Assembly (NCBI GenBank): GCA_035546775.1
Contig: DASZWD010000052.1
Span: forward strand, 1 to 59,518
Reading direction: 5' to 3'
DNA length: 59,518 nucleotides
Origin: Acidimicrobiales bacterium
GTDB lineage: Bacteria; Actinomycetota; Acidimicrobiia; Acidimicrobiales; JACCXE01
The notes beneath the pieces are model-generated. The model did not search any database. It was not told the DNA's origin and saw only the letters and a program-made list of their open reading frames with translations. The position numbers were made by a program, and so were the translations under genes. Shown here piece after piece: positions 24,653 to 29,396 of this stretch (its first letter is position 1; every line of letters begins with the position of its first letter).

Positions 24653-26119
24653 ATGCGTCGCCTCCTGCGCCTCCTCTTGCTCGTCGGCGTCGGATGGACC
24701 GGCGTCGAGCTTTACAAGCGGTCGCGGCCGTCGCCGGCGACGGCGGGCGCCGGCGTCGTGCACACCTCGGCGATGGCCCGCAACGTCGCGCTGGCGCGCA
24801 CGTCGGCGAAGGTCGGTGCGTCGTACGCGTCGCACCAGGCGCGCCGGGCAACGGCGTCGCCCGAGAAGCAAGCGGAACTTGACGCCGCGTTCGAGATGAA
24901 AACCGCCGAGGAGGTCGCCAACGTCCTCGGCAACATGAAGGGCGCGCTGATGAAGATCGGCCAGATGGCGAGCTTCCTCGACGACGGGCTGCCCGAGGCG
25001 ATGCGCGACGCCCTGGCCACGCTCCAGGCCGACGCGCCGCCCATGAGCGCGGATCTGGCGGCGCAGGTGATCGAGCGCGAGCTCGGCGCGGCGCCCGACG
25101 CGGTGTTCGCGGAATGGGATCCGCAGCCGATCTCGGCGGCGTCGATCGGCCAGGTGCACCGAGCCGTGACCAAGGACGGCGAGGCAGTCGCAGTCAAGGT
25201 CCAGTACCCGGGGGTGGCCGAGGCGATCACCGCCGACCTCGACAACTCGCAGATGCTGTTCTCAATGCTCAAGATGCTGTTCCCGCACCTCGACCCCAAG
25301 CCGCTGGTCGACGAACTGCGCGAGCGCCTCGGTGAAGAAACGGACTACCGCATCGAAGCGAAGAATCAGACCGACTTCGCCCGGTGGTACACCGAGCATC
25401 CCTTCATCCACGTGCCGCGCGTGTTCAACGAACTGTCGACCGAGCGCGTGCTGACAACCGAGTTAGTCGACGGCGCCCGCTTCGACGAGGTGGCGCAGCA
25501 GTGGCCGGACGACGAGAAGCAGCTCGCCGCCGAGGCGATCTACCGCTTCGTGTTCCGCAGCCTCTGGGCCTTCCACGCCTTCAACGGCGACCCGCATCCG
25601 GGCAACTACCTGTTCCATCCCGGCGGCCGCGTGACGTTCCTCGACTTCGGTTTGGTGAAGCGCTTCACGCAGCGCGACATGGATGGCGCGGCGGCGATGA
25701 TCGAAACGCTCGTACTCAACGACGACATCGCCGCGTACCGCCGCACCGTCGAGGACATCGGCTTCTTGCACCGCGACGCGCCACTGACCGACGAAGAGGT
25801 CGAGCAGTACTTCGGGTACTTCTACGAACTGATCCGCCACGGTGGCGGCCACCGGCTCGTCACCCATGAGTACGCGGCCGCGATGGTCGGCAAGTTCTTC
25901 GACCCCAACGGCTCGAAGGTGCAGAAGTACGCCAACATGCTCCCGCAGTACGCCATCCTCCAGCGGATCAACCTCGGCCTCTACGCCATCCTCGCCCGCC
26001 TCGAAGCCAAGGCCGACTGGCTGAAGATCACCGAGGAGATCTGGCCCTTCGCCGGGGGCGCACCGTCGACGGAGCTTGGCCGCGCCGAGGCGGCGTGGGT
26101 GGCAAGACTGCGGGGGTGA
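24653..26119 (+). CDS. ABC1/UbiB-family atypical kinase
   Basis: 488 residues. The N terminus has one hydrophobic segment (LLRLLLLVGVGWTGVELY). The ABC1 core shows the family KxGQ motif (KIGQMASFLDDGLP) near residue 100, Ala-rich QPISAASIGQVHRA replacing the usual Gly-rich loop, VAVKVQYPG, GDPHPGNYLF and LDFGLVKRF. Members phosphorylate or hydrolyse ATP to support quinone or isoprenoid lipid handling at the membrane. The stop overlaps the next gene (GTGA). ATG at 24653 chosen because it begins the membrane segment. Confidence 0.9.
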   Translation: MRRLLRLLLLVGVGWTGVELYKRSRPSPATAGAGVVHTSAMARNVALARTSAKVGASYASHQARRATASPEKQAELDAAFEMKTAEEVANVLGNMKGALMKIGQMASFLDDGLPEAMRDALATLQADAPPMSADLAAQVIERELGAAPDAVFAEWDPQPISAASIGQVHRAVTKDGEAVAVKVQYPGVAEAITADLDNSQMLFSMLKMLFPHLDPKPLVDELRERLGEETDYRIEAKNQTDFARWYTEHPFIHVPRVFNELSTERVLTTELVDGARFDEVAQQWPDDEKQLAAEAIYRFVFRSLWAFHAFNGDPHPGNYLFHPGGRVTFLDFGLVKRFTQRDMDGAAAMIETLVLNDDIAAYRRTVEDIGFLHRDAPLTDEEVEQYFGYFYELIRHGGGHRLVTHEYAAAMVGKFFDPNGSKVQKYANMLPQYAILQRINLGLYAILARLEAKADWLKITEEIWPFAGGAPSTELGRAEAAWVARLRG

Positions 26120-27096
26120 CTTCGCCGCACGTAGAGATCACCAGCCCCGACAAGGTGATGTTCGCCGACCGCGGCGAGACCAAGGCCGACCTGGCGAACT
26201 ACTACCGCTCCGTCGAGGTGCCCATCCTGAAGGCGATGGGCGGTCGGCCCGTGCTGTTGCAGCGCTACCCCAACGGCGCGAGCGGGCCGTCGTTCTTCCA
26301 AAAGCGCGTGCCGGACAAGCGACCCGACTGGCTCCAGACGACCGTCGTGTCGACGCCCAACGGCACGACGTCGGACGCCCTCGTGATCGCCGACATCGAA
26401 CATGTGCTGTGGGCCGTCAACCTCGGTTCGCTCGGCTTCCACGTGTGGCCGTACCACGCGGCCACGCCCGACATGACCGACGAGTTGCGCATCGACCTCG
26501 ACCCCTCCCCCGGTGTCGACTTCGAGATGTTGCGCGAGGGCGCCGCCGAGGTGAAGGCGCTGCTCGACGAACTCGGCATCAAGGGCTTCCCCAAGACGAC
26601 GGGATCGCGGGGCATCCACATCTACGTCAACGTGGCGCCGCGCCTCGACAGCTACCAGGTGCGCTCGTGCGCCGTCGCCCTGGCCCGCGAACTGGAGCGC
26701 CGCCGCCCCGATCTCATGACGTGGCAGTGGTGGAAGGAGGAGCGCGGCGCGCGCGTCTTCGTGGACTACAACCAGAACTGCCCGCACAAAACGGTGTTCG
26801 GCGCGTGGGGCGTGCGCGCCAACGACGACGCCCGCGTCAGTGCGCCCTTCACCTGGGACGAGTTGCCGACCGTCGACATCTACGCTCTCAACCTCGCGAC
26901 GGTGCCGGCGCGCCTCGCCGCCAACGGCGACCCGTGGGCGGCCATGTACGACGACCCGCAGTCGCTGCAACCGTTGCTCGACATGAACGCCCGCGACACC
27001 GCCAACGGCATGCTCGACGCTCCCTGGCCGCCCGTGTACCCCAAACAACCGAACGAACCGCCGCGGGTGAACCCCTCGCGCAAGAAGAAGGACTGA
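26116..27096 (+). CDS. Stand-alone LigD-type polymerase/primase (PolDom)
   Basis: 326-residue archaeo-eukaryotic-primase-type polymerase used in non-homologous end joining and gap repair; prefers ribonucleotides in studied homologues. Metal-binding DxD is RIDLDPSPG (near residue 135), the preceding-strand motif is SRGIHIY with the catalytic His, and a third acidic residue lies in RVFVDYNQN. There is no fused ligase or phosphoesterase domain. The GTG start overlaps the ABC1 stop. A separate ATP-dependent ligase is encoded nearby on the other strand; no ku gene is in the window. Confidence 0.9.
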   Translation: MTSPHVEITSPDKVMFADRGETKADLANYYRSVEVPILKAMGGRPVLLQRYPNGASGPSFFQKRVPDKRPDWLQTTVVSTPNGTTSDALVIADIEHVLWAVNLGSLGFHVWPYHAATPDMTDELRIDLDPSPGVDFEMLREGAAEVKALLDELGIKGFPKTTGSRGIHIYVNVAPRLDSYQVRSCAVALARELERRRPDLMTWQWWKEERGARVFVDYNQNCPHKTVFGAWGVRANDDARVSAPFTWDELPTVDIYALNLATVPARLAANGDPWAAMYDDPQSLQPLLDMNARDTANGMLDAPWPPVYPKQPNEPPRVNPSRKKKD

Positions 27097-27099
27097 CCA

Positions 27100-27519
27100 G
27101 TGCAACTCAACGATGCCGCCAAGGACCTGATCCGCTCGGGCAAGCTCGCCCTCTGCGCCACCGTGAACGCCGACGGGTCGCCCCAGCTGAGCGTCATCTG
27201 GGTCGGCCTCGACGGCGACGAACTCGTCTCGGGCCACCTCGGCGCGTGGCAGAAAGTAAAGAACCTGCAGCGCGAGCCGCGTGTGGTGCTGTCGATCGAG
27301 GGCGACACACGCCTGCCCAACGGCATGCAACACACGCTGCTCATCCACGCCACCGCACGTGTCACCGAAGGTGGGGCGGCCCAACTGCTCTACGACCTCG
27401 GCAAGATCTACGTCGGTCCCGACGCCGAGTTCCGCCCGAGCGACGACCCGAACGCCGGCTACGTCGTCCACTACCGCGTCGACAAGGTCGGCGGCATCGG
27501 CCCCTGGAACGAGGGTTAG
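27100..27519 (+). CDS. PPOX-class F420-dependent oxidoreductase
   Basis: 139-residue split-barrel flavin/deazaflavin-binding protein. N-terminal GKLALCATVNADGSPQLSVIWV and VKNLQREPRVVLSIE match the actinobacterial PPOX/Rv1155-like group, many of which use F420. GTG start, four bases after the polymerase stop. The TAG stop at 27517-27519 overlaps a minus-strand TAA (27516-27518) that ends a relic copy of the DNA ligase 3' end. Substrate unknown; F420 rather than FMN is inferred from the family. Confidence 0.82.
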   Translation: MQLNDAAKDLIRSGKLALCATVNADGSPQLSVIWVGLDGDELVSGHLGAWQKVKNLQREPRVVLSIEGDTRLPNGMQHTLLIHATARVTEGGAAQLLYDLGKIYVGPDAEFRPSDDPNAGYVVHYRVDKVGGIGPWNEG

Positions 27520-27538
27520 GTCGCGGCGAGGACCTCGG
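27515..27538. repeat. 24-bp direct repeat, copy 1 (relic ligase 3' end)
   Basis: 22 of 24 bases match 28322-28345. Read on the minus strand it encodes EVLAAT followed by TAA, the same end as the intact ligase, with two third-position changes. It marks the left border of the ~807-bp insertion. Confidence 0.7.
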
Positions 27539-27623
27539 GCGCTGATGCATAAGCCGTTCCGCGGGGACGCTTTCCTTGGTCTGCATCAACCGCACATCGC
27601 GGCACTCAGCGCCTTGTTTGGCT

Positions 27624-27764
27624 TCACCGACCGTTCCTGCGCTCGGCAGCGAGCAGCTCTGCTCGCAGCTCGTCTTCTGTCATCGCGCGGACCTTGGTGA
27701 GACGCTCACGCTCTGTCTGCGTCGCGTAATGGTCACACGGTGCGGAGCGGCGAGATCGAAGCAC
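27624..27764 (-). CDS. Small charged protein, 46 aa, within insertion
   Basis: GTG start at 27764 with a perfect GGAGG five bases upstream; too short for most gene finders. The product has a Cys/His start (APCDHYATQTERERLTKV) and a helical tail (MTEDELRAELLAAERRNGR) that is rich in Glu and Arg. No family is recognised. It follows the 100-aa gene on the same strand after 35 bases, so the two probably form a unit carried by the inserted segment. The ribosome binding site and helix pattern support it; length limits confidence. Confidence 0.55.
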   Translation of the reverse strand: MLRSRRSAPCDHYATQTERERLTKVRAMTEDELRAELLAAERRNGR

Positions 27765-27799
27765 GTTTGCCTCCTGCCGGAGCCGACACGGTCCTGGCT

Positions 27800-28102
27800 T
27801 TACGCCAGCACGTGCTTGTTCTTCAGCTCGGACGCCAACACGCGCGGGAATCGAAATCGCTCGAAAGGATCGGACGGGTCATCCGATCGTGACGGCCACG
27901 CGTACGCCGAGCACACGTAGCGAACGTCATCTGGGCAGTCTCGAAGGAGACTCCGCCTATTCCGCTCAGTTGCGATCTTGGATGGGACGAACACCAAGCC
28001 AGCGATGACCACTGCACCTGTCAAGCCCACGAGAAGCGCGACTGCGAGTTCCGGTGCACGCACCGAGGCGGCCAGCAGCGTCGATAACTTGCCCAAGATC
28101 AC
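27800..28102 (-). CDS. Hypothetical single-pass membrane protein, 100 aa, within insertion
   Basis: GTG start at 28102. Residues ~17-40 form one hydrophobic helix (LAVALLVGLTGAVVIAGLVFV), followed by a basic patch (KIATERNRRS) and a soluble C-terminal half with two cysteines (LLRDCPDDVRYVCSAYAWP). The third codon positions are clearly less GC-rich than in neighbouring genes, which suggests recent acquisition. No family is recognised. It lies between the two 24-bp repeats with the 46-aa gene. The remaining ~220 bases up to the ligase hold a hairpin and no convincing gene. Confidence 0.5.
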   Translation of the reverse strand: MILGKLSTLLAASVRAPELAVALLVGLTGAVVIAGLVFVPSKIATERNRRSLLRDCPDDVRYVCSAYAWPSRSDDPSDPFERFRFPRVLASELKNKHVLA

Positions 28103-28145
28103 GCTCTGTAATCGTCGCGCTCGCGGTCAGCCAACCACGCAGTTT

Positions 28146-28187
28146 CGCGAAAGTCGAGATCGGCCGTACGCGCTCTCGACTTTCGCG
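28146..28187. terminator. Perfect 14-bp hairpin in insertion
   Basis: CGCGAAAGTCGAGA (28146-28159) pairs perfectly with 28174-28187 across a 14-base loop. It lies downstream of the minus-strand ligase gene and upstream of the small membrane gene, so it may separate their transcripts. Confidence 0.5.
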
Positions 28188-28321
28188 TGCAGTTGGGGAC
28201 GCTGGAGGCACTTCACCGAAGGCTCTCACGTCCCTAACTGCACGTCGAAGCCCCGAGCGGCAACCCACGCACGAATGCCGGTTCTTTCGCTCTTGCGCGA
28301 CGTCGCTACTGCCCGTTCGAT

Positions 28322-28345
28322 GTTAAGTCGCGGCGAGGACTTCGG
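28322..28345. repeat. 24-bp direct repeat, copy 2 (functional ligase 3' end)
   Basis: Contains the last codons and TAA of the intact ligase gene and matches 27515-27538 at 22 of 24 positions. Both differences are synonymous in the ligase frame. Confidence 0.7.
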
Positions 28346-29396
28346 CGATGTTGACGGTGTCGGGCATGCGCACCTGTTCGTAGGTGCACGAGCGGGGCTC
28401 GCGGTCGTAGCGGAAGCGGCGAAACGACGCGGCGTGGCGCATGCGAGTGCCGCCCTGGAAATGGCCGTAGGCGACTTCGACGACGAGTTCGACGCGCAGG
28501 GGTACCCACGACATGTCCTTGCCGGCGTTCCAGCGGTTGCCCGTCGGCGGCTTGTCCATGCCGGATGCCTGCATCTGGGCCCACTCGCCCCACGGGTGGT
28601 TGTCCGTCGCGTTCTCGCGCAGCGGCGCCAGCTCGTCGACGAGTTCGCGCCGCTTCGCCTGCGTGAAGGAACCGGTCACGCCGACGTGATGCAGGTTGCC
28701 CGCGTCGTCGTAGAGGCCGAGCAGGAGCGAGCCGATGCCTTGGCCGTCCTTGTGCCAGCGGAAGCCGGCGACGGCGCAGTCGATGGTGCGCTCGTGCTTG
28801 ATCTTGATCATCGTGCGCTGCCCGGGGTGGTAGGTGTCGTCGCCCTTCTTGGCCATCACGCCGTCGAGGCCCGCACCCTCCCAGCGCTCGAACCACACCT
28901 GCGCCTCGGCGGGGTCGGTCGTCATCGGCGTGACGTAGATGCCCTTGCCCTTGCCGTCGAGCGCGTCGACGAGGCGCGCCCGGCGGACGTCGAAGGGTTG
29001 GTCGCAGATGTCCTCGCCGTCGACGGCGAGCAGGTCGAAGGCGACGAAGAGGGCGGGGATCTCGGTGCTCAGGCGCTCGACGCGCGACTTCGCCGGGTGC
29101 ACCCGCAGGCTCAGCAAGTCGAAGTCGACGGCACCGTTGTCCCCCACGATCACCAGTTCGCCGTCGACGACGGCGTCGTCCGGAAACGCCGCCTTCACGT
29201 ACTCGACGACTTCGGGGAAGTAGCGCGTCAAGGGTTTGGCGTTACGGCTGCCGAGCTCGACGTCGTCGCCGTGCCGGAAGATGATCGAGCGAAATCCATC
29301 CCATTTCGGCTCGTATCGCCACCCTTCACCGAGGGGAATCGTCGGCTGGGACTTCGCCAACATGGGTGAGACCGGCGGCTTCAGCGGTGTGTCCAC
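28323..29396 (-). CDS. ligC: ATP-dependent DNA ligase (LigC-like)
   Basis: 357 residues: adenylation domain plus OB-fold domain only, as in mycobacterial LigC. Motif I is EPKWDGFR near residue 30 with the AMP-accepting Lys, motif III FDLLAVDGED, motif IV GLDGVMAKK, motif V MIKIKHERT, and motif VI-like RMRHAASFRRFRYD. It joins nicks with ATP in DNA repair. GTG start has a leaderless TAGCCT six bases upstream, opposite the WecA-like promoter. The 3' end is duplicated 807 bases away. The nearby polymerase gene suggests a two-part end-joining or gap-repair set. Confidence 0.9.
   Translation of the reverse strand: MDTPLKPPVSPMLAKSQPTIPLGEGWRYEPKWDGFRSIIFRHGDDVELGSRNAKPLTRYFPEVVEYVKAAFPDDAVVDGELVIVGDNGAVDFDLLSLRVHPAKSRVERLSTEIPALFVAFDLLAVDGEDICDQPFDVRRARLVDALDGKGKGIYVTPMTTDPAEAQVWFERWEGAGLDGVMAKKGDDTYHPGQRTMIKIKHERTIDCAVAGFRWHKDGQGIGSLLLGLYDDAGNLHHVGVTGSFTQAKRRELVDELAPLRENATDNHPWGEWAQMQASGMDKPPTGNRWNAGKDMSWVPLRVELVVEVAYGHFQGGTRMRHAASFRRFRYDREPRSCTYEQVRMPDTVNIAEVLAAT

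Follow-up and report, generated by a model that had tools for sequence, protein, structure and literature searches.

It is standard for genomic islands to restore their target gene and to leave a displaced fragment of it behind (PMC4383910). The e14 prophage supplies a new icd 3' end in E. coli and leaves a displaced copy of 163 bp (PMC6379469), and SGI1 at trmE is a genomic island using the 3' end of a gene (PMC8409611). The locus described here resembles both cases in that a carried copy appears to replace the 3' end of a protein gene while the displaced copy lies on the far side, and in that the differences between the tail copies are conservative. It differs from them in the size of the insert (less than 0.8 kb), in the lack of an integrase or any supported gene, and in the involvement of two different genes in one genome. 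A resemblance to T6SS effector and Rhs loci was also noted, where an old allele superseded by a diverged one leaves a 3' remnant, although the remnants in those loci are whole genes or long ends (PMC5361080) and those found in this study are 24 to 49 bases long.

The window, a 59,518-nucleotide stretch of an Acidimicrobiales bacterium (contig DASZWD010000052.1), contains in order a LigD polymerase gene (+), a PPOX gene (+), a relic, an insert and a ligase gene (-). The first encodes a LigD primase-polymerase domain associated with NHEJ (26095-27096, +; Pfam PF21686, E 1e-84), the second is of the PNPOx family (27100-27519, +; PF01243, E 6e-8) and the third encodes an ATP-dependent DNA ligase (28323-29396, -; PF01068, E 4e-40). 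The 24 bases at the ligase stop, GTTAAGTCGCGGCGAGGACTTCGG (28322-28345, -), which form the 3' end in use, recur at 27515-27538 (-) as GTTAGGTCGCGGCGAGGACCTCGG, with 22 of the 24 bases identical and a spacing of 807. On the minus strand both copies encode EVLAAT-stop, the two differences between them being synonymous third-base changes, and the stop of the left copy, a relic of the ligase 3' end (TTA, 27516-27518), overlaps the PPOX stop (TAG, 27517-27519). The first-pass annotation had described the 22 matches, the shared EVLAAT-stop with its synonymous differences and the overlapping stops, all of which were confirmed. Its claim that the ligase 3' end has been duplicated is likewise supported; the copies enclose foreign-looking DNA and the displaced copy adjoins PPOX.

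The chance of 22 matches in 24 beside the partner gene's own stop is, by our own estimate, of the order of 1e-8; the 24-base repeat is real and not a product of chance. A search of the genome for the 24-mer had been suggested as a check, and a 23-mer at three mismatches or fewer was found in the whole 3.75 Mb genome only at both window sites and at C34:45539-45561. The latter is a 20/23 match at an unrelated gene end, where an enoyl-CoA hydratase-like gene is followed by an unrelated gene; considered as a possible relative of the ligase end, it was taken as a chance match. Among 100 ligase loci of other species no ligase-tail relic was found apart from that of the window.

In the sister species G001 (GenBank contig JACCXE010000260.1), the single congener available for comparison in a genus of two genomes, the stop codons of polymerase and ligase overlap and neither PPOX nor the insert is present, so that two additions, PPOX and the insert, separate the window genome from its sister. 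In more distant relatives that retain the tail-to-tail arrangement of polymerase and ligase, the two genes are separated by short gaps of about 26 to 120 bases and PPOX is missing. PPOX was absent from this junction in the relatives examined, and the exact empty site, with PPOX and ligase abutting, was found in none of them. The proposition that the ligase and PPOX genes once abutted is therefore not supported beyond what the relic implies: no relative shows the junction and G001 has no PPOX there. Looking for the empty site in relatives, as had been recommended, thus yielded a species without the insert but not a PPOX/ligase junction.

The inserted segment (27539-28321, 783 bases) has a GC content of 62.3% compared with 68.9% in the genome sample, the lowest among all 783-base windows of the stretch, and is non-coding by codon usage. 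The two small genes earlier assigned to it, ORF46 and ORF100, score -0.28 and -0.17 per codon, compared with +0.36 to +0.38 in the genes on either side. Neither has a Pfam match and ORF100 had no match in plasmids and phages, so the two genes are without support. Nor can the segment be taken as one element, since a distinct dispersed hairpin repeat of about 205 bases lies within it, itself split by 557 bases of other DNA (27610-28166) that are absent from the copies on contigs C17 and C19. The left part of the repeat comprises 56 bases (27554-27609, +; clear homology starts at 27559) and the right part 129 bases (28167-28295, +), with 97-99% identity to C17:6000-6128(-) and C19:12346-12460(+). 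The window copy lacks a stretch that the other two copies carry between two CCGCGG motifs. Outside its own genome the insert DNA gave short marginal matches only, in 59 and 298 relatives of the order, and the 557-base interrupting DNA gave nothing beyond such matches in the other genomes searched. At 28146-28187 the interrupting DNA terminates in an inverted partial copy of the hairpin outer arm (CGCGAAAGTCGAGA).

The two unsplit copies of the repeat elsewhere in the genome, C17:5998-6213 and C19:12261-12476, show 95-97% mutual identity. The 55-base palindromic core, TGCAGTTGGGGACG...CGTCCCTAACTGCA (28188-28242 in the window), is of equal length in four exact-pattern copies, has a strong predicted fold (z about -4) and also occurs singly at two sites on contig C4 and on C5. 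Each of the three full copies of the repeat has its right end 2 to 27 bases 3' of a stop codon, and in the window the repeat is set off from the direct repeats by about 15 and 26 bases. Across 396 genomes of the phylum and viral contigs the hairpin pattern was found in its own genome only, and an Rfam search returned no credible match. Being short, non-coding, palindromic, dispersed and mostly intergenic, the repeat is similar to REP/REPIN and MITE-like repeats (PMC3116915, PMC6382973) but differs from them in its very few copies. A REPIN or other RAYT-mobilised repeat would fit the palindromic, dispersed form but was rejected, as the genome has no match to the Y1_Tnp (RAYT) transposase (PF01797); a MITE was also rejected, the three-copy alignment having no clear terminal inverted repeats or target-site duplication.

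Hairpins of the 55-base type were further seen on both sides of a 293-aa DUF559/AbiEi-like gene in the same genome (G000 C4:64749-65773; L165:3249-4275), the Pfam matches of which are weak and below cut-off; it could be a hairpin-associated nuclease gene. Another lies inside a long Ala/Pro-rich frame belonging to a flagellar hook-gene cluster (C5:12020-12104; L166:3021-3105) and leaves that frame unbroken. Other small dispersed intergenic repeats, some of them palindromic, are present at C17:6214-6494, C30:205779-205823, C34:46159-46211, C30:88756-88808 and C19:11820-11870, and the C17 spacer is composed largely of small dispersed repeats.

The observation is stronger than was known when the window was first annotated because a second locus, on C17, repeats the same anatomy. 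There the stop of an acyl-CoA synthetase gene (5972) overlaps a relic, TYATRDLDALAAG-stop, which corresponds to the last 13 codons of a convergent DinB-family gene; the intact copy, ending TYATRDLDALTAG-stop, is 0.5 kb away and the insert is about 488 bases long. Both loci carry copies of the hairpin repeat and their target genes are unrelated. At both convergent pairs the tail copies begin within 1 base of the stop codon, and they are 24 and 42-49 bases long. Of 1,115 gene ends surveyed over 1.2 Mb (32% of the genome, sampled partly for holding the repeat), only those at the window locus and at C17:6495 have a stop-containing tail copy within 3 kb downstream. The third repeat locus, C19, also lies at a gene stop and has no tail duplicate or relic. 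In G001 a VapB/VapC-like pair (L190:881-1512, C182) overlaps the end of the DinB gene at the acyl-CoA synthetase/DinB junction, and no VapBC remnants were found in either of the two inserts. With the G001 pair in place, the DinB reading frame runs on to a new stop.

Eight of the nine differences between relic and gene at the two loci fall at third codon positions (six of the seven in the 42 bases at C17) and one is nonsynonymous; over the 66 bases of duplicated tail in total, this bias has a P of about 0.001 if differences were random and about 0.009 if the gene changed synonymously and the relic drifted freely. When the bases overlapping PPOX or the synthetase are excluded it becomes 5/5 (P about 0.02 on the drift model). 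The codon-bias evidence is regarded as moderate because the bases are few and part of the relics overlaps a neighbouring gene. The C17 tail copies differ at 7/42 bases against 3-5% for the repeat copies, with P of about 2e-5 to 3e-4 under a simultaneous origin. Judged from these patterns of substitution, both members of a tail pair seem to have accumulated their changes while serving as functional gene ends, which would mean that one of the two was imported at each locus. Had insertion of the repeat created the duplication and had the relic then drifted freely, fewer differences and an absence of codon bias would be expected; the third-position bias, together with C17 tails diverged beyond the repeat copies, suggests that the direct repeat is probably not the target-site duplication of an element.

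Such a target-site duplication, in which a staggered break at the gene end, or nicks spaced by 24-49 bases, would have been filled in during repeat insertion or by NHEJ, would accord with direct repeats enclosing DNA with the dispersed repeat at both loci, with the position of C19 at a gene stop and with the NHEJ genes located here. It is nevertheless unlikely, given that a gap separates the repeat from the direct repeats of the window, that the C17 tails are far more different than the repeat copies, that C19 has no tail duplicate and that the length of the duplicate varies. Homology-facilitated illegitimate recombination is a possible, if doubtful, alternative. In this scenario the resident gene would have been exchanged for a diverged ligase allele together with the region downstream of that allele (or, alternatively, the PPOX side would have been imported carrying a foreign ligase tail), one end being joined by homologous recombination and the other illegitimately, inside the old tail. 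No integrase would be needed to account for the synonymous divergence or for the end of the similarity at the stop codon, displacement that leaves 3' remnants has been proposed for loci of T6SS effectors and Rhs (PMC5361080), and the sister species differ at the junctions, with VapBC-like genes at the C17 junction in G001. An illegitimate join would, however, be expected anywhere in a gene, whereas the relics fall in the last 49 of 855 and 24 of 1,074 bases (joint chance about 0.001, calculated by hand), and the short tail length is not predicted. As for chance similarity or assembly error, the C34 match shows that 20/23 can occur at an unrelated gene end and the contigs may stem from a metagenome bin, but a 22/24 match in frame, including the stop and at the partner gene itself, together with a second case, makes this very improbable, and contigs wrongly joined across the repeat would not match a tail to its own gene.

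The best explanation overall, to which we give slightly less than even confidence, is that a diverged ligase tail was imported and displaced the resident tail in the manner of an integrative element. The ligase gene would first have ended in what is now the relic, with its stop overlapping that of PPOX. DNA from a related but diverged source, bearing its own copy of the ligase tail, would then have recombined at the end of the ligase gene, the imported tail completing the present ligase and the resident last codons being displaced beyond the insert, where they form the 24-base relic; the recombination machinery, if any, may have been lost or may have acted in trans. Site-specific integration with a carried tail would explain the short tails starting at the stop codon at both loci, and is the likeliest, though unproven, mechanism. 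Direct repeats are present at both ends of the insert and one of them restores the ligase gene, as in integrative elements.

The likeness to an integrative element at a gene end, which the first-pass annotation had pointed out, thus holds as a resemblance, a new gene tail being supplied, and the absence of an integrase that it had remarked on was also found, but the specific element it proposed is not supported. Against integration stand the lack of an integrase in both the 783-base and the roughly 488-base insert and of any supported coding sequence in the former, the two different targets, the missing PPOX/ligase junction in relatives and the lack of a significant shared core. The motif common to the window and C17 sites ranked 12th of 767 gene ends and was rejected as a recombinase core since 26 of the 767 match equally well. 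The search for an integrase in trans gave eight tyrosine-recombinase matches elsewhere in the genome, none of them tied to the two sites. Three consecutive tyrosine-recombinase matches occur at G000 C60:47016-49540. An integron gene cassette was considered and rejected: GTTAGGT and GTTAAGT in the window fit GTTRRRY, but no paired RYYYAAC arm was seen by eye, and at C17 GTTAACG does not fit the attC pattern (RYYYAAC...GTTRRRY). The anatomy works like that of a tail-replacing integrative element, and the locus falls outside that class on the integrase and the common core.

The two loci provide a small datable record of overlapping convergent genes being separated and of gene tails being exchanged between related bacteria. 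They might also belong to a family of sub-kilobase, gene-less elements with a hairpin core of about 205 bases, mobilised in trans and integrating at the 3' ends of different convergent genes, each supplying a replacement tail, although we consider this improbable. If the hairpin repeat does drive tail replacement at many genes, it would represent a mobile-element strategy with neither an integrase of its own nor a fixed target.
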